Made by a program: the position numbers and the translations under genes. From NCBI RefSeq assembly GCF_016772475.1, contig NZ_CP068595.1, positions 5,518,001 to 5,582,000 of the forward strand: DNA of 64,000 nt, read 5' to 3'. Source of the DNA: Paenibacillus sonchi (GTDB lineage Bacteria; Bacillota; Bacilli; Paenibacillales; Paenibacillaceae). Under the pieces are notes generated by a model that did not search any database, had not been told where the DNA came from, and was given only the letters and a program-made list of their open reading frames with translations. Every line of letters starts with the position of its first letter. The first letter of the stretch is position 1. Of this stretch, positions 5,556 to 40,476 are shown in pieces.

Positions 5556-5682
5556 GCTGTTGATTGCTTTTACAGCTGAACGGACAGCGGAATGACTAAA
5601 AATTGCTGTTTTTTGGCACACTTAAAGCACGGCTTGCCGCCCTTGACATCTGGGCAAAACTATAAATTAAGGAATGAGCACC

Positions 5683-7338
5683 ATGTGGCCGACTATTGTA
5701 TCCTACATCCCCGGATGGGTCATATTTATGCAGGCTGCAATTACATTGCTCTGTCCGCTGGGAATTTATTTTATATATAAAAAACTGTATGCATTCGTCA
5801 GCAGTGCTGGACCGAAGATGAAGGCTATTGCTCAACCTAATGCAGAGTCAACAGCGGACAGCCTGGTCAGCGGGCAGTACGAAGCGGATTTGTCGAATCT
5901 TCAGCAGGCAATCGGCGGGAACAGTGATGTGAATTTTCGTGAGTTTGTGGTACAGGGGTATGAGCTTCGGGCTGTACTTGTTTTTGTTAATGGGATGCAG
6001 GATGAAGAATTGATCAATAAGCATGTCATGCAGCAGCTTATGTTCAGAAACAGTTGGATGAAGGAAGAGCAGGAAGATTCACAGAAAACTTTAACCCTGT
6101 CCGCCCTAAAAGCAAACCTGCTGCCGCTGACAGAGCTTGAGGAAGTTAAAGAGCTGGACAAGCTCCAGGAGCGGATTCTTTTCGGCTATACGGCACTGCT
6201 GATTGAAGGGATACCAGCAGGACTTCTGGTCGGACAGCCGAACGGGTCAATCCGTGCTATTACAGAACCGACTTCGGAAGCGCTGCTTCGCGGACCAAGA
6301 ATCGCCTTTTCGGAAGTGTTAAGTGAGAACACTTCTATGCTGCGCAGACAAGGTTTGAATAAGAACCTGGAGATGAAGCTATACGAGGTGGGCAGTCTTG
6401 TGAAACGCAAGCTGGTGATTGCGTACATGAAGGATATTGTCAATCCCGATTTGCTGGAGGAAGTCCATAAGAGAGTATCAAGGATCGATATGGATTTTAT
6501 TGCTGAATCGGGTTATGTGGAGCAACTGATAGAGGATAACGTGCTAAGCCCTTTTCAGCAAATCCAAAATACCGAGCGGCCTGACCGGGTAATCAACGCC
6601 TTGCTTGAAGGGCGGGTTGCTCTTCTTCTGGACGGGACACCCTTTGCATTGATTGTGCCCGTAACCTTCAGCATGCTGCTTCAATCACCGGAGGATTACT
6701 TTGAACGGTGGCTGCCTGGAACTTTGCTGCGGATGCTGAGGTTTTTCGCTGCATTCATGGCGCTGATGGCACCGGCTTTGTATATTTCCTTCATCTCGTT
6801 TCATCCCGGATTGATTCCGACTGAGCTGGTGATCAGCATCATCGAGACCCGCCAGGGGGTGCCTTTTCCATCTGTTATTGAAGTTCTGATTCTGGAGGTA
6901 TCCATTGAAATCCTGCGTGAAGCGGGAATCCGGCTGCCCAAACCGATCGGACCTGCGATGGGCATCGTAGGCGGTCTGATTATAGGCGATGCCGCAGTAA
7001 ATGCGGGAATCGTCAGCCCTTTTCTAGTCATCGTGGTGGCCGTCACTGCGATTTCATCCTTTTCGATCCCCATGTACAGTGCAGGCATCACGCTCCGTAT
7101 TTTAAGGTTTGTTGGCATGATGTTCGCAGCCGTACTTGGCATGCTTGGCACGATTCTGTTTATGCTGCTGATCTTTATCCATTTGACCAAGCTGAAGAGC
7201 TTTGGAGTGCCCTATGTCACTCCCTTCTCCCCTCTGCGCTTGAGCGATTGGAAGGATCTCTATATTCGTGCACCGCTGCCCTTAATGAAGCGCAGACCTG
7301 AAATGATGAAGACACAGAAGAAAAAACGCCGCACCTAG
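5683..7338 (+). CDS. gerKA: Spore germination receptor A subunit (GerA family)
   Basis: A subunit of a GerA-type nutrient germinant receptor in the inner spore membrane. The protein has the usual two-part plan: a soluble N-terminal portion (about residues 45-340), then a membrane bundle with the conserved stretches ERWLPGTLLRMLRF, PTELVISIIETRQGVPFP and GPAMGIVGGLIIGDAAV. It carries an extra N-terminal hydrophobic segment (WVIFMQAAITLLCPLGIYFI), which not every family member has. AAGGA at 5669-5673 fits ATG 5683 better than ATG 5674. It is followed by the B and C subunits in canonical order. The germinant cannot be read from sequence, so the K suffix is only the commonly used name. Confidence 0.9.
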   Translation: MWPTIVSYIPGWVIFMQAAITLLCPLGIYFIYKKLYAFVSSAGPKMKAIAQPNAESTADSLVSGQYEADLSNLQQAIGGNSDVNFREFVVQGYELRAVLVFVNGMQDEELINKHVMQQLMFRNSWMKEEQEDSQKTLTLSALKANLLPLTELEEVKELDKLQERILFGYTALLIEGIPAGLLVGQPNGSIRAITEPTSEALLRGPRIAFSEVLSENTSMLRRQGLNKNLEMKLYEVGSLVKRKLVIAYMKDIVNPDLLEEVHKRVSRIDMDFIAESGYVEQLIEDNVLSPFQQIQNTERPDRVINALLEGRVALLLDGTPFALIVPVTFSMLLQSPEDYFERWLPGTLLRMLRFFAAFMALMAPALYISFISFHPGLIPTELVISIIETRQGVPFPSVIEVLILEVSIEILREAGIRLPKPIGPAMGIVGGLIIGDAAVNAGIVSPFLVIVVAVTAISSFSIPMYSAGITLRILRFVGMMFAAVLGMLGTILFMLLIFIHLTKLKSFGVPYVTPFSPLRLSDWKDLYIRAPLPLMKRRPEMMKTQKKKRRT

Positions 7339-7366
7339 CCGGAAACCTGCAGAAGGAGGAAGTTAT

Positions 7367-8470
7367 GTGTTTGTACGCTCTGACCAAAAAATCACATCCA
7401 CACAGGCTGCTATATTCTTGACAAACACTGTTCTCGGAGCCGGAATATTGACGCTGCCCAGATCGGTTACCGAGTCCGCCAAAACTCCGGATGCCTGGTT
7501 GTCGGTCCTGCTGGGAGGCGGGATTATCATGCTGGTTATCGTGCTGATGGTTAAGCTCAGCCAGCAGTTCCCGGGGAAAACGGTCTATCAATACTCCAGA
7601 CAAATTGCAGGCAGCATTCCAGGGAGCTTCCTTTCCATGCTGCTGATCGTTTACTTCATTGTAATCGCAGGGTTTGAGATTCGTGTGTTTGCCGAGATCA
7701 CCATGTTTTTTTTACTTGAAGGCACACCGATCTGGGCCATTGTCATCCCGTTTATCTGGGTGGGGGCGTACCTGGTCTTCGGCGGGATTAATTCCATTGC
7801 CAGAGTGTATCAGATTATTTTTCCGGTCAGCATATTCGTTTTTCTGCTGTGCTATTTCTTTAGCGGGAGACTGTTTGATATCAATCATTTGCGGCCGTTT
7901 CTGGGTGATGGAATAATGCCGGTCATCAGGGGACTAAAATCAACAATCCTGGTGTACACCGGTTGTGAGGTTGTCATGACATTAACAGCATTTATGCAGC
8001 ACCCTCAGCAAGCTGTCAAAGCCATGCTAGCCGGAATTGGGATTCCGATGGTGCTGTACTTGATTACTGTGGTCATGTCCATTGGCGGACTGTCGATAGA
8101 TTCAGTGATTACAAGCACATGGCCTACGATTGACCTGATCCGCAGCTTTGAAATTTCAGGCTTCTTTTTTGAACGTCTGGAATTCCCGCTGCTCGTCATT
8201 TGGATGATGCAGATGTTTTGCAACTTCTGCAGCTTCTTCTTCAACGCATCACTGGGAATCTCCCAGTTGTTTAAACTAAAGATGGCTCCGATTATTTTCG
8301 GACTGATGCCGCTCATTTTCCTGGCAACTATGGTTCCTGTACGCATCAACGATGTATTTGCTCTTGGCGACGCGATCGGATTCATAGGTATAGGCTTATT
8401 TATCCTGCTGCCGGTTCTGCTGTCCCTGATTCTGATCGTTCGGAGAAAGGGGCTGAAGCAGAATGTATAA
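7367..8470 (+). CDS. gerKB: Spore germination receptor B subunit (GerB, amino-acid permease superfamily)
   Basis: Integral membrane subunit with about ten hydrophobic helices, member of the APC-related GerB family that is thought to bind the germinant. It opens with TSTQAAIFLTNTVLGAGILTLP, split across the first helix in the way typical of the family, and ends with a short basic tail. GTG at 7367 is the start: a perfect AGAAGGAGG precedes it by about 7 nt and no in-frame ATG lies nearby. It begins 28 bp after the A subunit and overlaps the C subunit by 8 nt. Confidence 0.9.
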   Translation: MFVRSDQKITSTQAAIFLTNTVLGAGILTLPRSVTESAKTPDAWLSVLLGGGIIMLVIVLMVKLSQQFPGKTVYQYSRQIAGSIPGSFLSMLLIVYFIVIAGFEIRVFAEITMFFLLEGTPIWAIVIPFIWVGAYLVFGGINSIARVYQIIFPVSIFVFLLCYFFSGRLFDINHLRPFLGDGIMPVIRGLKSTILVYTGCEVVMTLTAFMQHPQQAVKAMLAGIGIPMVLYLITVVMSIGGLSIDSVITSTWPTIDLIRSFEISGFFFERLEFPLLVIWMMQMFCNFCSFFFNASLGISQLFKLKMAPIIFGLMPLIFLATMVPVRINDVFALGDAIGFIGIGLFILLPVLLSLILIVRRKGLKQNV

Positions 8471-9662
8471 ACGCAGATTATGTCTTACCTTCTTGGCCGC
8501 TGCACTGCTGCTGGCAGAGACCGGCTGCTGGAGCAGCAATGAGATTGAAGATCTGAGCATGTACACTGCGCTAACTATAGATACCGGGCAGCCAAGCCAG
8601 ACGGAGCAGACCTTCGAGAAAGAGGGAGGAAGCTATTTAAAAGACAATAAAATTACAGTAACGATTGAGGTTGTCCCGAAACAGTCCTATGGGAAATCCA
8701 ACAAAACATCGGATACCGGCGCCAAAGCGCCTAACTATGTCAATATTTCGGAAACAGGCGATTCAGTGCTGGAAATTTTGCGCCAGTTCGCCATTCGTCT
8801 CGATCACCCGGTGATTGGACATCATCTGAAGGTTATTGTGATTTCCAGGCAGCTGCTGCAGGAGCAGCGAATACAGGATTTAATGGATTTTGTGCTGCGG
8901 GATAATGACATTCGCCCCAGCAGCTTAATTTTAATGAGTGAAGGGCGGGCTGCGGATACACTCAAAACGAAATATGGCGATGAGATACCGGCTTTTCACC
9001 TTAGAGGCATGACGCGGAACCGTTTTAGAAACAACAGAATTATGAAGGGCATCGTCACATCTGAACTTGATGCGCTGATGTATGCCAAAAAAAGCTTTGT
9101 ATTGCAGAATATCGTTGAAGCGAACCAGGAATTGGAGTTCTCAGGCGGAGGGGTGATTAAGGGGGACACCGGCAGGTGGATTGGAAATCTGGATCAGCAG
9201 GATATTGAGAGCATCGCATGGATAAAGGGGGAAGTAAAAGGCGGAACGCTCAAGACCTACAACCCGGATCATCAAACCGTGACCTATGAGATTAAGTCGG
9301 CGAAGAGCAAAATATCGGCTGAAGTGAACAAGGATCACGAGCCGGAGTTTCACGTGAGTATTGAATCCGAAGGGCGGTTAATTGAAAAGTGGAACAACCC
9401 GGGGCTCCCTTCTAAAAAAGAATATCTTGAAAAAATGCAGGGGGTATTCAAAGAGAGGCTCACCGAGATGATTCAATCGCTCATGCATAAAATGCAGTCG
9501 GAATACAAAGTAGAGGTAGCCGGATTCGGGGAACGGCTAAACGTGGAAGAGCCGCAGGAATGGAAGAAGCTGAAGGATCATTGGGATGAAACCTTCAGCC
9601 GCACTCCAGTCACCTTTGATATCAAGCTAACAATTACAGATTATGGCTCATTCACGGAATAA
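8463..9662 (+). CDS. gerKC: Spore germination receptor C subunit (GerC lipoprotein)
   Basis: Membrane-anchored lipoprotein subunit of the germination receptor, 399 residues. The signal sequence ends LAETGCWSSNEIEDL; the Cys-Trp after the hydrophobic stretch is the family hallmark, although Glu and Thr at -3 and -2 make a weaker lipobox than usual. The Ger(x)C C-terminal domain follows (about 210-395). The start overlaps the gerKB stop by 8 nt, implying translational coupling. Its stop lies 15 bp from the stop of the converging BtrH-like gene and I see no strong terminator between them. Confidence 0.9.
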   Translation: MYKRRLCLTFLAAALLLAETGCWSSNEIEDLSMYTALTIDTGQPSQTEQTFEKEGGSYLKDNKITVTIEVVPKQSYGKSNKTSDTGAKAPNYVNISETGDSVLEILRQFAIRLDHPVIGHHLKVIVISRQLLQEQRIQDLMDFVLRDNDIRPSSLILMSEGRAADTLKTKYGDEIPAFHLRGMTRNRFRNNRIMKGIVTSELDALMYAKKSFVLQNIVEANQELEFSGGGVIKGDTGRWIGNLDQQDIESIAWIKGEVKGGTLKTYNPDHQTVTYEIKSAKSKISAEVNKDHEPEFHVSIESEGRLIEKWNNPGLPSKKEYLEKMQGVFKERLTEMIQSLMHKMQSEYKVEVAGFGERLNVEEPQEWKKLKDHWDETFSRTPVTFDIKLTITDYGSFTE

Positions 9663-9677: not shown

Positions 9678-10664
9678 TTACTGGACCAATCCGCTCTGCA
9701 TCGTTAAGTGTGCCAATTCCTCCAGGAGCTGTTCTTCGAGGCGGATCATTTCATGCATTTTTTTGTGAATCTTCCGCCGCTGAGATAGCTTATTGCCTGA
9801 ACACATCACTTTGATCATGAATTGATTAATAAGATTCCACTGCTCTCCTGAAAGCTGATAGCCCTCAGCAGCTTGGGAGAGTGCGCTCAGGTCGGCCTCA
9901 CGGTTAAGCAGACGCAGGAACAGGCTGAACCGGATCCGGTGGATGGGCAGGGTGTTGGCAGCCAGCATGAAGCTGGAGCTGTATTCAGCAGGACAATCGG
10001 CGGTGATCCCCGTATTCAGATAGGCGTCGGCATAGGCTCTGAGGTGAGCGGCAACCTGGCCCGGCTGAACCTGATTGAAAGGGCTGCTCAGCATTCCTTG
10101 AAGCGTAGTCTGCCAATCTGTGTATGAACGCGAAGAATCGCAAAGCTCAAATAATGCATAGAAATGGCAGGCTTGCTGGAAGACATCGAAATCCACAGGT
10201 TCAAGCGGTTTGCCATAGTAGGCATCCGTTAAATAAATGAGGTGGCTTGAACGGTCCAGCCCAACGGCGAGACAGGCATGGCTGGTATGCAGCTTGCGGA
10301 AGGCCACACACCAGGGGCAGTCATAAGAATCAAATCCGACCAGGACCGGCATTCCCGAAGACAACCGGCTCTCCAGCATGTCGAGCATGAAGGTCTTATC
10401 CATTTCCGGCTCCTTCCGTTCAATATAACTGAACACAAGGCCATGGTACGCTGACAGAGCTTCTGTACTGATCCGCGGCAGGGCTAACCGCTCAATCAAC
10501 GGCTGATCCGGGAACTGCTGTTCTTCAAAGGACACCTGCCAGGCGTTCCCGTACATGCACTTGCTGTCCTTTCCCAGCCATTCAGCCACAGAATGAATGC
10601 AGTCATCGATACAGCTGCGGAGCGTGGGGTAGGGGGTGCTCTTAACGGGAACAATGTTCAGCAC
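9678..10664 (-). CDS. BtrH-like acyltransferase (butirosin biosynthesis protein H N-terminal domain)
   Basis: Protein of 328 residues resembling BtrH, the transferase that moves the aminoacyl chain from an acyl carrier protein onto an aminoglycoside amine in butirosin biosynthesis. The BtrH N-terminal, cysteine-protease-like fold is suggested by Cys18/Cys22 near the start (TLRSCIDDCIHS), a GMPVLVGFDSYDCPWC strand, and candidate His and Asp in HTSHACLAVGLD and YLTDAYYG. The C-terminal ~150 residues are helical. GTG at 10664 is the start, with AAGGAGAT 9 nt upstream; it overlaps the end of the AraC gene by 23 nt, so the two are one transcript. A carrier-protein gene lies just across the divergent promoter region, which strengthens the acyl-transfer assignment. 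Family by resemblance; substrate unknown. Confidence 0.75.
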   Translation of the reverse strand: MLNIVPVKSTPYPTLRSCIDDCIHSVAEWLGKDSKCMYGNAWQVSFEEQQFPDQPLIERLALPRISTEALSAYHGLVFSYIERKEPEMDKTFMLDMLESRLSSGMPVLVGFDSYDCPWCVAFRKLHTSHACLAVGLDRSSHLIYLTDAYYGKPLEPVDFDVFQQACHFYALFELCDSSRSYTDWQTTLQGMLSSPFNQVQPGQVAAHLRAYADAYLNTGITADCPAEYSSSFMLAANTLPIHRIRFSLFLRLLNREADLSALSQAAEGYQLSGEQWNLINQFMIKVMCSGNKLSQRRKIHKKMHEMIRLEEQLLEELAHLTMQSGLVQ

Positions 10665-11562
10665 TGCTCATCATCTCCTTCGCCGACAAAAAATGACTAA
10701 GAAACCGGTTTCGATAACAGGCAGGAGTCATACCGCTGTACTCGCGGAACAGCCGGTAGAAATATTTCATATCGTAAATTCCGACCTCCAGCGCAATAGC
10801 CTGTATCCCAAGCTTCGTGAACATCAGCAGCATGCAGCTGTATTTCATGCGGATTTCCTGGAGCATCTGGATGTAGGATCTGCCGGTTTTTATTTTGAAT
10901 AATCGCTGAAACTGGCGGGAGCTCATCGCAATCTGCCGGCTGATCTCCTTCAGTGTGATTTTTTCGCTGAAATTGCTGATCATATACAGAATGACATCAT
11001 GCAGCGGATCTTCGTTAATCTGCGGCTGCTGAGTGAAGGGAACGGATGCAGCGGGCAGAATGAGCTTCGCCAGCTCGAACAGCAGCGGGTATAGCTGCTG
11101 TTGATCCTCAGCGGAACCATTGTTATGTATCCCCTGCATACGGCGGAGTAAAATGGACAGCTCCACGTTGTTCTCCCTGTATCCGAACCATTGCTTCAAC
11201 TCCAGAAGCTTCAGCAATGGAACCATGTCCTCTTCAGAGAACTGTCCTGACAGTTCGCCGGGAATCCTGCAAAGCTCCGGCCTGAGCATACAATTGAGGA
11301 TGATAAGCGGCTCGGAACCGGTCAGATCCTGCGGCTGAAAGACATGGGAAACCCCGGGCGGTATAACCAGCAAATCCCCCTGCACAACCTGCATTTTATC
11401 CTCAGCTGCCAGATGGATTCCTTCCCCCTGAACCACATAAGCGAGCTCCAAAAAATCGTGCTGATGACGTACAGAAGTGACCGTTTCGTGAGTCAGGAGC
11501 ATTTGAACCGGTGAACAGGAGTCAAATAGATATTCCCCCGTAAATACCGGAAAAACTTCCAT
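10642..11562 (-). CDS. AraC-family transcriptional regulator of the biosynthetic cluster
   Basis: AraC/XylS-type regulator with an N-terminal cupin sensor (SVRHQHDFLELAYV, about 25-40; GDLLVIPPGVSHVF) and a C-terminal pair of helix-turn-helix motifs (ITLKEISRQIAMSSRQFQRL and AIALEVGIYDMKYFYRLF). The start at 11562 is chosen because GGAGG lies 7 nt upstream; the frame stays open to 11643 but lacks a ribosome site. It is co-transcribed with the BtrH-like gene and divergent from the carrier-protein operon, so it probably controls both from the 11563-11718 region. The effector is unknown. Confidence 0.88.
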   Translation of the reverse strand: MEVFPVFTGEYLFDSCSPVQMLLTHETVTSVRHQHDFLELAYVVQGEGIHLAAEDKMQVVQGDLLVIPPGVSHVFQPQDLTGSEPLIILNCMLRPELCRIPGELSGQFSEEDMVPLLKLLELKQWFGYRENNVELSILLRRMQGIHNNGSAEDQQQLYPLLFELAKLILPAASVPFTQQPQINEDPLHDVILYMISNFSEKITLKEISRQIAMSSRQFQRLFKIKTGRSYIQMLQEIRMKYSCMLLMFTKLGIQAIALEVGIYDMKYFYRLFREYSGMTPACYRNRFLSHFLSAKEMMSSAEHCSR

Positions 11563-11614
11563 AGACAAACCTCCGTTTCCAATTTCCTTAAGATATACAC
11601 CTGGAATCCATCCT

Positions 11615-11643
11615 AGTATAGCTGAATATTTTGGCGTATTCAA
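11615..11643 (-). promoter_or_regulatory. SigA-type promoter of the araC-btrH-like operon
   Basis: On the minus strand TTGAAT (11643-11638) and TATACT (11620-11615) are 17 nt apart, which would start transcription about 45 nt before the AraC start codon. In the opposite direction no good -35/-10 pair is seen before the carrier-protein gene, as expected if that promoter needs the activator. Confidence 0.55.
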
Positions 11644-11718
11644 CCATATATTAACATCCGGGTTTTTGGTATATTCATTTCATTCATTCCTAATATGCTC
11701 ACTGAAAGGGGTATAGAC

Positions 11719-11961
11719 ATGCAGCAGAAAGTCATTGAGATTATCGCTGAAATCAAGGAGGATCCGGGCCTGCTTCAGACGCTGAACGGGGCTTCCGATC
11801 TGACTCTGGATGCCGCACTTGATTCGCTGCAAATCATCAACTTTATTCTGAGAATCGAAGACGAATTCGATATCGAAGTAGATTTCGATACCTTTGATCT
11901 TGAACATTTGAAATCGGTAGACCGTTTCTCCGCTTATGTTGCCGGGCTTGCCGTACGATGA
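11719..11961 (+). CDS. Stand-alone acyl carrier protein
   Basis: Small acidic carrier protein of 80 residues. The phosphopantetheine attachment serine is Ser36 in LDAALDSLQIINF, followed by the usual acidic recognition helix (RIEDEFDIEVDFDTFD). Start at 11719 fits GAAAGGGG upstream; an in-frame ATG at 11695 has no ribosome site. It overlaps the ATP-grasp gene by 4 nt (ATGA). It is not the housekeeping fatty-acid ACP, because it lies in a dedicated operon with a ligase rather than with fab genes. By analogy with BtrI it would hold an amino acid or other acid as a thioester while tailoring takes place. Confidence 0.85.
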   Translation: MQQKVIEIIAEIKEDPGLLQTLNGASDLTLDAALDSLQIINFILRIEDEFDIEVDFDTFDLEHLKSVDRFSAYVAGLAVR

Positions 11962-13307
11962 AGAACGCTGTGCACTGCGGCAGCTTGGAGTCGGAACGGT
12001 ACTGGCGGGAGGAAGATTTAGCCACTTTGCCATCCATTCCTGATGCGAGGGCTCTGGCTATCGTTCAGGCGATGGATGAAATGCTGTTTGTCTTTTGCAG
12101 GAGCGGGGATATTCTATTAACCCGTCATGGCATGGACCCGGCACAATATGACTATCTGCAATCTCTCAATTATTCATTCAAGACGAATATGAATCCATTA
12201 ACATTGGGAGTCCGGGAATCCGGCACAACACAGAACGCACTGAATGTATTTGAATTGCTGGGCAGGCTGGACCCCGGGCAGGAAACGGAAAGGTTAATAC
12301 CGGAAGGTTCAGTGCTTGAACCTTTTGCCGTGCTTCCCGGAACGCAGGAGGCGGTTAGACGCTATAAGCTTCTGCCCGGACTCCCGGATGAACAGACCGT
12401 GAGCAAAGTGAACACCAAAACCTACTCTGCTGCCATGCGGGACAGGCTGTCGTTGCCGAATATCGCCCAGATTGTCCACAGCGTAGAGGAGCTGCTGCAA
12501 TCAGGACAGGAGCTGCTGGAGAAGGGGCCTTTTCTGATCAAGGATGAGTACGGTGTATCCGGCAAAGGAAATCAGCTCGTGGACTCTGACCGCATGCTGA
12601 GCAGAATTGCCGGGTACCTGGAATCCAGCCGGAACAAGGATAAAAGAATCCGCTTTGTGCTTGAACCCCTGTTGAACCGGGAGACAGACTTCTCCAGTCA
12701 ATTTCACATCGATTCTGAAGGCCAAATCTCGATCTTGTCCGTTCAGCAGCTGGTCAACCACGGCTTTGCCTTCGGAGAATCACATTCGCCCGGGCCGCCT
12801 CTGCTCGTAAGGCTGGAACGGGAAGGATATTGGGAAATCATGCACAATATTGGACGGGAGCTGTATGCAGACGGTTATTATGGCGATGTATGCGTGGACT
12901 CCATGCTGCTGCGCGACGGAAGCCTCGCACCTCTGGTGGAGATCAATGCCCGCAAGTCGATGAGTCTGATTAAGCATAATGTGGACCGCCATCTCAAGCA
13001 GGAGGGGATGCACACCTGTCTAATACAGGTACCGTTAGCAACTATGGGTGAGGTCCGTTATGAAGAGCTGCTGCAGCGGCTGGAGCAGGCCGGCATATTA
13101 TTTTCGCCGGAAGAGGGAGAAGGGGTGATTCCTCTGTCATCAGGTACACTCCAGCCTCCGGACCCGTCCCGTTCCGCAGGTTCCACCGGTTCCGCCAAGG
13201 GTAAGCTGTATGCCGCGTTGGCCTACCGGAATGAAGACCGCAAAGACGGACTCACCCGCAAACTGGACGAATCGCTTCTGCGCACTGGCTATACTATACT
13301 GCGTTAA
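11958..13307 (+). CDS. ATP-grasp ligase, probable carboxylate/amino acid-ACP ligase (BtrJ-like role)
   Basis: ATP-grasp enzyme of 449 residues, expected to activate a carboxylate as acyl phosphate and join it to a nucleophile. The ATP-grasp core spans about residues 170-345: FLIKDEYGVSGKGNQ (lysine and glycine-rich loop), RFVLEPLLNRETDFSSQF, and PLVEINARKSMSLIKHN with the metal-binding Glu/Asn. The start codon overlaps the ACP stop (ATGA), so the two proteins are made in step, as expected for a ligase that loads this ACP. In butirosin BtrJ plays this part with glutamate. An ACP-independent peptide-type ligase is the alternative. The region before 170 is not recognised. Confidence 0.72.
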   Translation: MKNAVHCGSLESERYWREEDLATLPSIPDARALAIVQAMDEMLFVFCRSGDILLTRHGMDPAQYDYLQSLNYSFKTNMNPLTLGVRESGTTQNALNVFELLGRLDPGQETERLIPEGSVLEPFAVLPGTQEAVRRYKLLPGLPDEQTVSKVNTKTYSAAMRDRLSLPNIAQIVHSVEELLQSGQELLEKGPFLIKDEYGVSGKGNQLVDSDRMLSRIAGYLESSRNKDKRIRFVLEPLLNRETDFSSQFHIDSEGQISILSVQQLVNHGFAFGESHSPGPPLLVRLEREGYWEIMHNIGRELYADGYYGDVCVDSMLLRDGSLAPLVEINARKSMSLIKHNVDRHLKQEGMHTCLIQVPLATMGEVRYEELLQRLEQAGILFSPEEGEGVIPLSSGTLQPPDPSRSAGSTGSAKGKLYAALAYRNEDRKDGLTRKLDESLLRTGYTILR

Positions 13308-13323
13308 TGAAAGGAACCCTCCA

Positions 13324-14445
13324 ATGAACAATACCGTGACAGTTCTATGTTCTGGTTTTGGTCTGGGCTTTTATGTCCCCGGCCTGCTGATTGAGCGGAA
13401 GCTCAAGGCGCTTGGCATCGAGGCGGAGATTGAGGTTTTTGAAACCTTAATGTCTGACAGCAAAAAAAAGCTGACGGATGACAGCCGCAAAGCGTACCAG
13501 AAAAATTTTGCCGTCGCACTGACCTCGCAGAAAATACCCGCGGATATCCGAAACAGCCTTGATTCTGCTGCCGTTGAACGGATATTCCGGCAATGGCGGC
13601 AGGAAGAAAGGCAGCACTTCATAACATTATCCGGGCACTGGGTTCATGTTATGGACAGATACCGTGAAACTGCAGGTTTTCCTGTATATGCCGATTTGCT
13701 CTATATTGATGCTGATCTTTCGCCATCTTGGAAGAATCTCCGCAGGCTGAACCCCGGTTACGCGGAAGGCTACCACGAAGTAAGCATGTATGATCCCGGG
13801 AAGCGGCAGATCCTCTGCAGCATTGATGCCGGGGCCCAGCAAGCGCTGCCCGCTTCGGCAAGAAACGGGAGATTGGTTGTGCATGGCGGCGGCTGGGGAA
13901 TCGGAACATTCCGCGAGAAGTTTGCTGCCCTGGAATCAGCAGGGTATGAGCTGGATATTGCCGCTTACAGTTCTGAGGAGATTGGAGAGGCCATCCGCGG
14001 AAGACGTTATTTTATGAATGACCCGGAGTGGCGGACCTGGCTCCGCGACAGCAGCGGACAGTATACCTTTCCGCCTTTTGCAGAGGTAACCGGCAACCGG
14101 GATAACCACTTTCCGCCCTGCCGTCACTATCAGGAGGGGATGTACGGTGTCATCCGGCAGGCATCTGCTGTAATCAGCAAGCCGGGAGGCGGGGCTTTGA
14201 TTGATTCATTGGCTTCAGGCACTCCGCTGGTGCTGCTGGACCCTTTTGGCCCGCATGAGAAGATTAACAGTGATCTGTGGGTGGAGCTTGGTTACGGTAT
14301 CCGTTACGGGGAGTGGGCCGAGATTGGTTTTGACCGTGAAGAATTGCGTAAGCTGTCGGACAACCTCCAGTCGGCCATAGGCCGGTACCCCGATTATGCA
14401 GCAAGTTATGCGGAACAACTATCCGCAGCGGAAGGGAGAAGCTAA
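13324..14445 (+). CDS. GT-B glycosyltransferase (MurG/GT28- or GT1-like)
   Basis: Cytoplasmic glycosyltransferase of 373 residues with the two-domain GT-B plan. The N-terminal domain begins VTVLCSGFGLGFYVPG, a glycine-rich acceptor-side loop. The C-terminal donor-binding domain carries SKPGGGALIDSLASG followed by PLVLLDPFGPHEKIN, the nucleotide-sugar signature of GT1/GT28 enzymes. No membrane segment is seen. The start at 13324 has AAAGGAA upstream; the frame extends to 13210 inside the previous gene without a site. It ends in TAATG, sharing one base with the radical SAM start. It probably glycosylates the cluster's small-molecule product. Confidence 0.75.
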   Translation: MNNTVTVLCSGFGLGFYVPGLLIERKLKALGIEAEIEVFETLMSDSKKKLTDDSRKAYQKNFAVALTSQKIPADIRNSLDSAAVERIFRQWRQEERQHFITLSGHWVHVMDRYRETAGFPVYADLLYIDADLSPSWKNLRRLNPGYAEGYHEVSMYDPGKRQILCSIDAGAQQALPASARNGRLVVHGGGWGIGTFREKFAALESAGYELDIAAYSSEEIGEAIRGRRYFMNDPEWRTWLRDSSGQYTFPPFAEVTGNRDNHFPPCRHYQEGMYGVIRQASAVISKPGGGALIDSLASGTPLVLLDPFGPHEKINSDLWVELGYGIRYGEWAEIGFDREELRKLSDNLQSAIGRYPDYAASYAEQLSAAEGRS

Positions 14446-15637
14446 TGCAGCCTACCAGCAGAGTTAATCTGGATGCCAAGTCCTTTGAGGCTTTGAAACG
14501 CACGATCAGGAATGTCGTCATTCCGCACAGAGAACGCAAGCATGATCCCGGCTTCAAAACCGTTATGCCAGAAATTATGTCACTTAAGCTGACCAACCGC
14601 TGTAATCTCCGCTGCAAGCATTGCTACCAATGGAATGAATCCGGCTACCATCATGATATGGACACAGCCGAGCAGAACCTGGATATGGATTTGGAGATGA
14701 TCCGCAAGCTTTTGCAGGAAACAGATGAAGCAAAGTCCCGTCTGTATTTATGGGGCGGCGAGCCGCTGTTTCACCGGGATACGAAACCAATTCTGGAGCT
14801 TCTGAAAGAGCATCCCCGGATACAACGATCTGTACCAATGCATATCTGATTCATAAGTATGAAGAGGAGCTGTGTGCAATCTCGGACAATCTGGAGCTGC
14901 TGATACCGATAGAGGGGTTCGAGGATGAGCATGATTTTCTCCGCGGCAAAGGATCCTTTCACAAAGTGATCGAGAACGTGGAACGGCTGCTTGAACTGCG
15001 CGAGCAGGGCCGCTTCCGCGGCCGCATCTCCGTGCATAATGTGATTAATGACAATATGATCGGCAGGTTGTATGAACTGGTGGAATTTTTTGAGCAAAAG
15101 GGCGTCGATCTGGTACTGCTCTGCTTCCCCTGGTATATTTCTGCGGAAACCAGTCTGGAAATGGACCGCTTCTACGATGAACACTTCCAGTGGCTGGCGG
15201 AGCTTCCGCCGGATCACCGGAGCAGCTGGCATGCCTTCAAATACCATATTAAGCCAGGCAATGTCCCCAAGCTAACCGAAGACCTGAAACGGATCAACAG
15301 CAACACTTGGCATAATACAAGAATCCGTTACCAGCCGGGGCTCGACTTTGATGAAATAGAAGATTTTGTGGCCGGCAGGCCGATGGCATCCCGCAGCACG
15401 TCGAAATGTCTGGCGCTCAGTACGAGGGTTGATATTGCCCCGAACGGCATGGTGAGTGCATGTAAATTTTTTGGCGAGCTGGCGATTGGCAATGTGAATG
15501 AGCAGTCACTGACGGAAATATGGAACTCGGACCGCTACGACCGGCTGCGGCGGATTCTGGATGAAGGCTTGTCGCCGGCCTGCTCCAAATGCAATGTGCT
15601 GTACTTGAATACCTCTGCTGCGCTGTCCCATGTATGA
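14445..15637 (+). pseudogene. Radical SAM/SPASM enzyme, interrupted by one frameshift
   Basis: Radical S-adenosylmethionine enzyme. The 4Fe-4S/SAM motif CxxxCxxC is intact at Cys53, Cys57 and Cys60 (RCNLRCKHCYQW), as is LWGGEPLF. The C-terminal part has SPASM/twitch-type cysteines (SKCLALS, MVSACKFFG, ACSKCNVLY) for auxiliary clusters and the IWNSDRYDRLR helix. The frame that starts at 14445 stops at 14847, whereas the rest of the enzyme is read in another frame from before 14830 to 15637. Adding one C to CCCC at 14814-14817 restores KEHP-PDTTICTNAY and a 398-residue protein. Whether the break is real or a sequencing error is open. In butirosin the radical SAM enzyme BtrN oxidises a sugar alcohol; a similar dehydrogenase or an epimerase is possible here. 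Confidence 0.78.
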
Positions 15638-16674
15638 AGAACGGCCGTGGACAAACCGGTTATAGGCTCGGTATCTTGGGTGCCTCGAATATTGCTGTTC
15701 CAGCTTTGCTGGAGCCTGCGCGGCATGTCGAGACGGTTAGTATAGCCGCAATCGCAAACCGGACCTTTGAAAAAGCGGCAAAGCTGGCGGAAACTTACCA
15801 GATTCCTTATGTGGCGGGCAGTCTGGAGGAGTTGTTGCAGCTAAGCGGTCTGGATGGCGTATATATTGCACTCAGCAATGAGCTTCATACAGAGTGGGCA
15901 GTCCGGGCCTTGAATGCAGGTAAGCATGTATTGGCAGAGAAGCCGATTGCCTTGAATGCCGAAGAAGCTGAACGGCTAAGGATGGCCAAGGAAAAACCCG
16001 GCTCCCCGAAGCTCGCCGAAGGTCTGATGATCGCGTTTCATCCCTGGCAGCAGGCACTGAAATCTATTGTCGATTCCGGACAATTTGGCCAGCTGCACAG
16101 AATCAGGACACGTATTACCGTACCTGCCAAGGACAGGCATGCCGGAAATTACCGCAGTGTCAAAGCTAAGGGCGGAGGCGCTTTTGCCGATCTGGGCTGC
16201 TACTGGCTGCAGTTCCTGCAGGCCCTTGTGGGTCTTCAGCCCAGGGAGATTGCGGCGCAGTCGGCGTTTGACGGGCCGGAAGGCTGCGACTGGACCTTTC
16301 AGGCAGCGTTAAAATATGCGGATGGACTGGAAGCCGAATGTCTCACTTCCTTTGAGCAGCCATTCCGGGCTTCGCATACCCTGTATTTTGATCACACCGT
16401 GCTGACGATCCCGGATTTTTTCCGCCCGGTCAAAGGGTTCTACAAAATCAAAATACGGCATGACCTTCCGGATAACCGCAGCACCCTTTGCGAATTCGAG
16501 CCGATGAACTATTATGTCAGCCAGCTGGAGGCTTTTGCGGAAATCATGAGCGGGCAAAGGACGGAAAAGCTGGAAGCTGTATGGGAACGGGTACACATTC
16601 AATCCCTAATAATGGCTGAGGCCCGGCAGCACCGGGTTTATCGTGAAGCAAATCGTAATTGGCTTAAAAGTTAA
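15634..16674 (+). CDS. Gfo/Idh/MocA-family NAD(P)-dependent oxidoreductase
   Basis: Two-domain dehydrogenase of 346 residues. The Rossmann domain begins YRLGILGASNIAVPAL, and the family lysine lies in VLAEKPIALN; the C-terminal alpha/beta domain includes GGGAFADLGCYWLQ with the usual catalytic-region histidine position replaced by cysteine-tyrosine, so catalysis could differ. The ATG at 15634 overlaps the radical SAM stop by 4 nt, making it the last gene of the coupled operon; a longer in-frame start at 15589 would lie inside the upstream gene. It probably oxidises or reduces a sugar hydroxyl. A strong terminator follows. Confidence 0.85.
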   Translation: MKNGRGQTGYRLGILGASNIAVPALLEPARHVETVSIAAIANRTFEKAAKLAETYQIPYVAGSLEELLQLSGLDGVYIALSNELHTEWAVRALNAGKHVLAEKPIALNAEEAERLRMAKEKPGSPKLAEGLMIAFHPWQQALKSIVDSGQFGQLHRIRTRITVPAKDRHAGNYRSVKAKGGGAFADLGCYWLQFLQALVGLQPREIAAQSAFDGPEGCDWTFQAALKYADGLEAECLTSFEQPFRASHTLYFDHTVLTIPDFFRPVKGFYKIKIRHDLPDNRSTLCEFEPMNYYVSQLEAFAEIMSGQRTEKLEAVWERVHIQSLIMAEARQHRVYREANRNWLKS

Positions 16675-38267: not shown

Positions 38268-38857
38268 TTATCCCAGCAGTTCTTTGGCTCCGTTCATCAA
38301 TAAGGGCATAGTCTGTTTAACGAATGATTCCGCACTTATTAGACATCCCTCATTGTTCCAAACGTAAGCCGCCCCATACATCCCCCAGCTTAACATAATA
38401 GAAGCTGTATTTATTAAGAATTGCGCATTTGGACCCGATTGCATCTTGTCTTTATCTATAAAGTAAAGAATTAGGGTTTGAATTTTTTCCTTTATTTGAT
38501 TTTCGAAAGCAAGTCCAAGGGATGTATACCTTCTCTTGCACATAGTGCTTAGACCCTTATGAAAATCGCATACCCCAGAAAAATACTCTGAATGGTTTCC
38601 TCATTTAATACTTCGTGACCGCTTATTCTACGATTGATGATTGTCATAAATGATTCCATTAGTTTGGCCTCAAGCATTTCGAATTTATCTGCAAAGTGCG
38701 CGTAAAAGGTCGTCCTGTTAACAGTAGCCCGCTCCGCAATATCCCTAACGGTTATCGATTCAAAGTCTTTTTCTTGAAGTAATGCAGCAAAAGCGTCTTG
38801 AAGGAGCCGCCGTGTACGAATTACACGAGGATCTGCTTCATTCTTTTTAATTGTCAT
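38268..38857 (-). pseudogene. TetR-family regulator split by one frameshift
   Basis: The N-terminal half (to 38549) holds a clean TetR helix-turn-helix (SITVRDIAERATVNRTTFYAHF) and then stops; the C-terminal half continues in another frame to 38268. Adding one base to CCCC at 38573-38576 gives a continuous protein of about 196 residues through LGVCDFHKGLSTMCKRR. It is divergent from a nitroreductase, and TetR-type dyads lie between them. Real loss of the repressor would leave the nitroreductase constitutive; a sequencing error is equally possible. Confidence 0.75.
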
Positions 38858-39717: not shown

Positions 39718-39763
39718 AAAGACCTTGGCGCCGCATAAACAAAGGCGGGCTAAGGTCTCTTTT
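39718..39763. terminator. Terminator after the nitroreductase gene
   Basis: AAAGACCTT pairs with AAGGTCTCTTTT; it reaches into the end of the converging histidine kinase remnant. Confidence 0.65.
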
Positions 39764-40476
39764 ACAGGTTCTGCATCTCAGATTCTAACAAGGCGTCGCA
39801 ATCTTTAATTGGTATTGTGAGCCGAAACGTAAACACGTCATTCACATGATCCAGCGTCAGAGTACCCCCATGTCGTTCAGCGATGTTTCTCGCAATGGAA
39901 AGACCCAGTCCGGCACCGGTTTGAATGCCTTCGCTGCTTCTGGAGTGGTCAACTTTATAAAAACGTTCAAACAACTTTTCCTGTTGTTCACGGGTTAGAG
40001 GAATTCCCCTGTTTTCAACCTCGATTGCGGCCTGTTTAGGATCTGTTATCATTCGAACGTGGATCGCTCCGGGTTTAATTGAATATTTCAGAGCGTTCAT
40101 CAGCAAATTATCAATCGCTCTGGCGATTTTATCACTGTCCACAAAAATTAACACAGGAGAGCTGCCCAATATCCTTTATAATATGAATCGCATTATCATG
40201 AGCGATCGGTTCAAATTCAAAAAGCAATTGCTTCAGAAGCTGGAACAAATCAATCCGGTGTACATTTTTCCGGGTGTCCATGGAATTGAGCCTAGTGTAC
40301 TCGAATAGATCATCCAGCAGTTTCTTCAGATGAATGGATTTGTTGTACGTATTTTGCACAAAGCGGGTGTATTCCTCCTGATCCTGGAACGATTTTGTTC
40401 TTAAGAGCTCAATGTATCCGATGATACTGGTAAGTGGAGTGCGCAGGTCATGCGAAATTCCGGTAATCAGCTCCAT
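39762..40476 (-). pseudogene. Histidine kinase core, 5'-truncated and frameshifted
   Basis: Kinase region of a VanS/PhoR-like sensor. The H box is ELITGISHDLRTPLTSI and the ATPase half has NLLMNALKYS, GAGLGLSIARNIAERHGG. The sensor and membrane parts that should precede the H box are missing: the frame opens 4 codons upstream of the H box right after the DedA remnant. The two halves lie in different frames; removing one base from the CCC at 40165-40167 joins them (IIKDIG-SSPVLIFVDSDK). No response regulator is adjacent. It is best read as a decayed gene rather than a soluble kinase. Confidence 0.75.

Follow-up and report, generated by a model that had tools for sequence, protein, structure and literature searches.

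What does a compact set of seven genes in Paenibacillus sonchi make, when it brings together a stand-alone acyl carrier protein (ACP), an ATP-grasp ligase, a GT-B glycosyltransferase (GT), a radical S-adenosylmethionine (radical SAM) enzyme, a Gfo/Idh/MocA oxidoreductase (MocA), an AraC-family regulator, and a protein resembling the butirosin acyltransferase BtrH? The genes lie at positions 9678 to 16674 of a 64,000-nucleotide stretch of contig NZ_CP068595.1 (positions 5,518,001 to 5,582,000; here called the window), within a 7.78-Mb genome, and the nearest named relative of the ATP-grasp protein, at 95%, is from P. riograndensis. The cluster is a real, conserved biosynthetic gene family. We propose, with a probability of about 0.65, that it encodes a carrier-protein pathway independent of nonribosomal peptide synthetases (NRPSs) and leading to a sugar-containing amide, with a logic akin to that of the butirosin, closthioamide, and lincosamide pathways. 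An earlier, sequence-only reading of the locus had suggested such carrier-protein logic, and the analysis below supports it.

Conservation and distribution of the gene set

All seven genes were found together, with order and orientation kept, in 21 of 21 close relatives, and this joint recurrence indicates that the set is more than a chance grouping. Co-occurrence in other Paenibacillus, which the sequence-only reading had put forward as a check, is thereby established for the close relatives. The ACP, ATP-grasp, GT, and radical SAM genes are kept more widely; this type of BtrH-like gene and the AraC gene form a shell of the close relatives, and some of the distant loci have the MocA gene.

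A search of 100 genomes of the genus with the ATP-grasp protein gave matches in 45, with at least 72% identity in 22, the window included; the other 21 are the close relatives with all seven genes. Of the 100 genomes, at least 38 have the four-gene core (ACP, ATP-grasp, GT-B, and radical SAM), a count that includes the window despite its split radical SAM gene, in which one genome (G022) is cut by a contig end, and from which weak matches were left out. The core also occurs in 17 of 19 distant same-genus loci, in 8 of 9 further loci, and in 42 of 49 named loci retrieved with the radical SAM enzyme as bait, one of these (L149) having it in fragments; the genus, distant, named, and further locus sets share genomes, and their counts are not additive. 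Core-bearing named loci include those of Clostridium sp. C8-1-8, Thermoflavimicrobium daqui, and several metagenome-assembled genomes (MAGs), one of them from Chlorobiaceae and others labelled Lachnospiraceae and Clostridia. Two further MAGs, one from Cytophagales and one from Nostoc, carry the ACP, GT, and radical SAM genes with an AMP-forming ligase gene, the ATP-grasp gene being undetected on their short contigs. Of 31 loci centered on weaker relatives of the radical SAM enzyme, none showed an ACP, ATP-grasp, or GT gene.

The GT served as an independent bait and was found in 95 of 295 Paenibacillaceae genomes and in 4 of 398 phylum-wide genomes, 1 of them outside the family; some genomes have up to four copies. 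Among the best-scoring 30 GT-bait loci, every GT gene has an ATP-grasp gene (26 loci) or an ACP gene (4 loci) beside it, and within 1.5 kb on each side there is a radical SAM gene in 22 and a MocA gene in 8. The GT gene stands apart from the ATP-grasp gene in locus L110, and two genes separate them in L194. The latter locus comes from a plasmid search with the ATP-grasp protein, which returned four records; two, L194 and L195, from two Streptomyces plasmids, were inspected. In L194 (NZ_CP134205.1, 7578 to 14758) the order is radical SAM, ACP, ATP-grasp, MocA, APH-fold kinase, GT, and condensation-domain protein, the GT being annotated as hypothetical and belonging to the same family as that of the window; L195 has radical SAM, ACP, ATP-grasp, MocA, and GT. 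Relatives in other phyla are from Actinomycetota (the two plasmids) and from Cyanobacteriota, Bacteroidota, and Chlorobiota (one MAG contig each).

Carrier protein and ATP-grasp ligase

The ACP (11719 to 11961, plus strand) matches the phosphopantetheine-binding family PF00550 at 28.5 bits against a cut-off of 20.8 and has the serine for phosphopantetheine attachment in a DSL motif. Of 97 carrier proteins of the family, 82 have the serine motif LDSLQ and 93 the looser [DG]S[LI]. Judged by eye, the internal ATG at 11719, which follows AAAGGGG, is a likelier start than the opening of the open reading frame (ORF) at 11695. A D-alanylation (Dlt) role was considered and set aside: no further dlt-type gene was recognized among the seven, and the score against DltC is well under the cut-off.

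The ATP-grasp protein, the predicted loader of the ACP, is encoded at 11958 to 13307 on the plus strand. Its sole Pfam match is PGM1_C, below the cut-off; the family profile identifies the ATP-grasp peptide ligase 8ynd (E value, 8.9e-14) and PGM1 (3wvq; E value, 5.5e-6). Residues K195, E328, N330, and R332 are invariant in all 85 aligned rows. A relative with 85% identity bears the automatic name "[Butirosin acyl-carrier protein]--L-glutamate ligase." In a midpoint-rooted tree of 96 sequences, printed without support values, the window protein falls in a clade linked to GT and radical SAM genes, and most ATP-grasp proteins linked to the decarboxylase BtrK fall elsewhere; the exceptions are the GT-linked proteins of L120, L121, L123, L127, and L142, which group with the BtrK partners. 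Five BtrK-like clusters (L053, L108, L109, L112, and L126) have two ATP-grasp genes each, and in all five the copy beside the BtrK or PF14399 gene belongs to the BtrK-associated clade and the copy beside the GT gene to that of the window protein. In this comparison, from which BtrJ itself was absent, the window protein is, by sequence, a relative of the BtrK-associated ATP-grasps and a member of a GT-linked branch. The designation "BtrJ-like" given to it earlier therefore stands at the level of the wider family, and not as membership of the BtrK-partner clade.

No BtrK profile match was found in the window, nor any BtrK match at 1e-70 in its genome. A BtrK search of 295 genomes of the family found BtrK-like genes in 45 and no proven butirosin cluster. 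Ten of these matches (L085 to L088, L090, L091, L093, L095, L096, and L099) contain one internal TGA; nine of the ten lie in open frames of 895 to 901 amino acids and may represent a fusion or an adjacent reading frame.

Four clusters with no detected ATP-grasp gene (L114, L145, L140, and L141) have an AMP-forming ligase, as would be expected if the ATP-grasp protein is the loader.

The radical SAM enzyme

The radical SAM gene is split in this assembly. An N-terminal piece with the CxxxCxxC core (14445 to 14849, plus strand; PF04055, 39.5 bits) is read in one frame to about position 14819, from which another frame runs to 15637 and encodes the C-terminal piece (14819 to 15637, plus strand; PF13186, 56.4 bits) with a single-auxiliary-cluster domain of the twitch or BtrN type. 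The gene, from 14445 to 15637, is therefore not one open frame, and the earlier reading missed the break. It amounts to a single nucleotide and lies next to a short homopolymer; all 21 close relatives have an intact single frame of 397 amino acids.

We surveyed such breaks against relative G048, in which 51 ORFs of at least 150 amino acids lie in the syntenic stretch and 29 match the window at more than 60% identity. Among these 29 window genes, 25 have a single full-length frame, 3 are divided between two frames, and 1 has a different start. With 3 of 29 compared genes broken, an assembly indel is plausible for the radical SAM gene; unless the break is an assembly error, the pathway may be nonfunctional in this strain. 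The other two split genes, both on the minus strand, are by eye a TetR-type regulator and a sensor kinase (38268 to 38857 and 39762 to 40476), and their breaks fall outside homopolymers.

The pattern C322-X12-G335-X4-C340 plus C380-X2-C383 follows the CxxxCxxC core, and all seven cysteines and the glycine are invariant in 92 of 92 main-type relatives, a count made without the split pieces of the window, in which the same residues were recognized by eye. A C-X9-15-G-X4-C ... C-X2-C pattern with one auxiliary 4Fe-4S cluster characterizes the BtrN-type radical SAM dehydrogenases, and the enzyme has this motif, with CxxxCxxC and one auxiliary 4Fe-4S site. Against PDB sequences the family profile matched BtrN (4m7t; E value, 5.8e-9) over the auxiliary domain only, and the best match of the core domain was SkfB (E value, 9.2e-13). 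The earlier suggestion of a BtrN-type enzyme thus holds for the auxiliary domain. A full seven-cysteine SPASM domain is ruled out for the C-terminal iron-sulfur region by its only four invariant cysteines, despite the SPASM name of the Pfam match.

The BtrH-like protein

The putative carrier-protein-dependent acyltransferase or amide synthase (9678 to 10664, minus strand, GTG start) scored 19.6 bits against PF14399, the family of BtrH, below the cut-off of 29.7. All 18 aligned members of its family matched PF14399 at E values of 0.01 or less (best, 2.6e-10), 3 of them also matching DUF4872. In hhalign comparisons the family aligned over 319 columns (P 91.6; E value, 8e-7) with a family that has an above-cut-off PF14399 member; P was 94.8 against H11 and 23.2, 2.7, and 0.3 against H89, H26, and H29. 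The protein appears, at the level of family profiles, to be a remote relative of PF14399.

Against PDB sequences neither phmmer nor the family profile gave a match for the BtrH-like protein, and structure comparison alone succeeded. The predicted fold matches AziU3, CcbD, and CtaG, the CtaG match coming from realignment of the top 1000 Foldseek chains and being absent from the best 50. A papain-like catalytic set with a C-terminal helical domain is present, and the Cys-His-Asp residues are invariant in the family. Together with the PF14399 family matches, these features support the assignment to BtrH-type transferases. One or another BtrH-like family occurs in all 21 close loci, in 18 of the 19 distant ones, and in 34 of the 49 named ones. 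Two transferase candidates from other clusters, F26 and F29, show weak hhalign kinship to the family of the window protein and are possible members only. BtrH-family papain-like transacylases also lie near ACPs in other operons, according to the available part of PMC2922099.

Glycosyltransferase and MocA oxidoreductase

A Pfam scan of the GT protein (13324 to 14445, plus strand) matched no glycosyltransferase family. Its AlphaFold2 model (predicted local distance difference test score, 90.2) was matched by Foldseek to CalG3 (E value, 6e-11), SnogD, MurG, and other GT-B enzymes at 10 to 16% identity, and its family profile matched the processive diacylglycerol glucosyltransferase 9wde (E value, 9.1e-10) in the C-terminal donor part only. 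The MocA protein (15634 to 16674, plus strand) matches PF01408 (E value, 2e-20) and PF22725; its start is likely the ATG at 15634, and its top NCBIfam model, inositol 2-dehydrogenase, scored 80.7 bits against a cut-off of 355. The BtrH-like, ATP-grasp, and GT proteins reached the cut-off of no NCBIfam family. The Pfam assignments otherwise agreed with the initial ones for the ACP (PP-binding), GFO_IDH_MocA, Radical_SAM, SPASM, and AraC helix-turn-helix (HTH) proteins.

Gene layout and variation around the core

The seven genes form two divergent units around positions 11644 to 11718, with the AraC and BtrH-like genes on the minus strand and the ACP, ATP-grasp, GT, radical SAM, and MocA genes on the plus strand. 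The AraC-family regulator (10642 to 11643, minus strand; cupin and HTH domains, PF12833 and PF02311), which may have an internal start, shares 23 nucleotides (nt) with the BtrH-like gene. The ACP and ATP-grasp genes overlap by 4 nt and are coupled by ATGA, a gap of 16 nt separates the ATP-grasp and GT genes, and the overlaps are 1 nt between GT and radical SAM and 4 nt between radical SAM and MocA. Sequence reading and the ORF listing confirmed the positions, overlaps, and ATGA coupling first described for the seven genes. A germination-receptor-type operon of three genes, by eye GerKA-, GerKB-, and GerKC-like, adjoins the cluster at 5674 to 9662; among the 21 close loci, just four (L031, L032, L033, and L049) have such a neighbor.

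Around the core in related loci we found ABC-2 exporters (PF00005 and PF06182), methyltransferases, including FkbM, a PIG-L deacetylase, β-ketoacyl-ACP synthase III (KAS III)-like proteins, AMP-forming ligases, a nucleotidyltransferase, an epimerase, a UDP-sugar dehydrogenase, GH3, and a luciferase-like monooxygenase, each neighbor family having been assigned from one or two examples. The radical SAM gene usually comes after the GT gene, and does so in the window; in eight clusters with a rearranged order (L111, L112, L126, L120, L121, L123, L133, and L142) it is the next gene after that for the ACP, and in L194 it immediately precedes the ACP gene. Downstream of the core in L053 (15166 to 19202) are genes for a BtrK-like decarboxylase (E value, 1.5e-100 to BtrK 7ru7), a second ATP-grasp protein, and an above-cut-off PF14399 protein, and this cluster is possibly a hybrid of a butirosin-type side chain and the GT and radical SAM chemistry.

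Proposed pathway and alternatives

In the pathway that we propose, the ATP-grasp protein would use ATP to activate an amino or hydroxy acid and tether it, as a thioester, to the phosphopantetheine arm of the ACP. The GT, assigned to its class by predicted fold, would attach a sugar taken from a nucleotide-sugar donor; the radical SAM enzyme, of the BtrN type, and MocA, judging from their families, may oxidize or epimerize the sugar or an alcohol. The BtrH-like protein, with its predicted fold and residues, would then pass the acyl group from the ACP to Cys18 and on to an amine in a ping-pong reaction of the CcbD type, giving a small sugar-containing amide. The AraC protein probably regulates the promoter region between the two divergent units. 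In L194 an NRPS condensation-domain protein stands beside the set, which would be expected of a pathway that ends in acyl transfer from a carrier.

Two versions of this pathway divide its odds between them. In one, the GT and the BtrN-type enzyme act on the ACP-tethered amino or hydroxy acid, building a sugar onto it and oxidizing that sugar there, and the papain-fold enzyme then transfers the product to an amine; we hold this version tentatively, and the adjacency of the radical SAM and ACP genes in the eight rearranged clusters and in L194 leans toward it, though not the usual gene order. In the other, which is possible if somewhat doubtful, the ACP branch makes an acyl side chain, the GT, radical SAM, and MocA enzymes make a free sugar scaffold, and the BtrH-like protein joins the two, as in butirosin. 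A PIG-L deacetylase, a type used on N-acetyl sugars, in some relatives and the APH-fold kinase gene within the Streptomyces cluster would fit a separate scaffold, and in the CcbD reaction the acid is carrier bound and the amino sugar free (available part of PMC12945683). The recognized BtrH-like families vary, however, and in all 30 of the top-scoring loci found with the GT bait its gene adjoins that of the ATP-grasp protein or the ACP, which is not so in two loci from elsewhere, L110 and L194; the position of the radical SAM gene right behind the ACP gene is a linkage tighter than two branches need, without being proof. If the on-carrier version is true, the locus would represent a glyco-amino-acid assembly line, one of a class widespread in Paenibacillaceae with relatives in other phyla.

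Several observations weigh against the proposed pathway as a whole. The radical SAM gene is disrupted in this assembly; L116, L117, L143, and L052 carry an ATP-grasp as well as an AMP-forming ligase, and L140 and L141 lie on short contigs, which weakens the case that one ligase replaces the other; the profiles used detected no BtrH-like gene in 15 of 49 named loci, some of them short contigs; and the ABC (ATP-binding cassette) profile found no exporter in the window and one in only 2 of 21 close loci. In addition, the closest fold match of the BtrH-like protein, AziU3, is an aziridine synthase and not an amide synthase (available part of PMC12559475), and the third catalytic residue is Glu in CcbD (available part of PMC12945683) and Asp in the BtrH-like family. 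Other carrier-bound chemistry by the BtrH-like protein, either hydrolytic release or an AziU3-like ring closure, would yield a free or cyclized sugar acid instead of an amide; we regard this as unlikely. That the locus is a decaying pseudogene cluster in this strain, as the frame break might suggest, is improbable: each of the remaining six genes can be aligned from end to end with its counterpart in the closest relative (L031), and two of the three broken genes among the 29 compared lie outside the cluster, suggesting assembly indels. Modification of the cell envelope or spore surface, in which the GT makes a glycolipid or glycan that the ACP and BtrH-like branch aminoacylates, appears very unlikely. 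The GT profile does match the diacylglycerol glucosyltransferase and MGD1, the ACP has weak scores against DltC models, and the germination-type operon adjoins the cluster, but the profile matches are confined to the C-terminal donor part and the neighbor is seldom conserved. The patchy spread within the genus, the multiple GT copies of some genomes, and the accessory methyltransferases, AMP-forming ligases, KAS III-like genes, and exporters instead indicate diversified metabolites.

Comparison with known systems

The side chain of butirosin is built with the ACP BtrI, the ATP-grasp protein BtrJ, BtrK, and BtrH, and the pathway includes the radical SAM enzyme BtrN. The P. sonchi cluster resembles it in its stand-alone ACP, ATP-grasp ligase, putative PF14399-type transferase, and radical SAM enzyme with a BtrN-matching auxiliary domain, and some related clusters add a BtrK-like decarboxylase (L053). 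It differs in having a dedicated GT in the carrier operon, an ATP-grasp protein outside the clade of BtrK partners, and a BtrH-like sequence remote from PF14399. As had been noted from the sequence, no NRPS, polyketide synthase, BtrK, or 2-deoxy-scyllo-inosose (DOI) synthase gene is found among the seven; Pfam showed no DOI synthase or aminotransferase gene among them either, the remaining window having been listed as ORFs only. PGM1 makes peptides on a peptide scaffold, and the PGM1-type peptide ligases are similar in profile to the window ATP-grasp protein, whose gene, in contrast, is coupled to that of an ACP.

In closthioamide biosynthesis, which uses the peptidyl carrier proteins CtaE and CtaH, loading by the ATP-grasp protein CtaD and transfer by CtaG are both predictions in the available part of PMC6772006; the window has in addition a GT and a radical SAM enzyme, and no thioamide synthetase was seen. 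The lincosamide enzyme CcbD makes an amide from carrier-bound proline and an amino sugar; CcbD and LmbD have a Cys-His-Glu triad (both from the available part of PMC12945683) and about 10% sequence identity to the BtrH-like protein. The acid in that pathway is activated by a stand-alone adenylation protein and not by an ATP-grasp ligase (available part of PMC4351081).

Among the literature matches listed, from open-licence PMC papers, there is no described product for the gene set, and the set is absent from the available portions of PMC4431377, PMC10318531, PMC12945683, PMC4351081, PMC12559475, PMC6772006, and PMC2922099. The GT family is common in Paenibacillaceae, yet no described product turned up in this literature. 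The gene set unites a sugar transferase and a radical SAM enzyme with the butirosin, closthioamide, and lincosamide precedents, and the accessory genes of the relatives (methyltransferases, PIG-L, KAS III-like, AMP-forming ligases, BtrK-like, and a condensation domain) suggest a diversified family of compounds.

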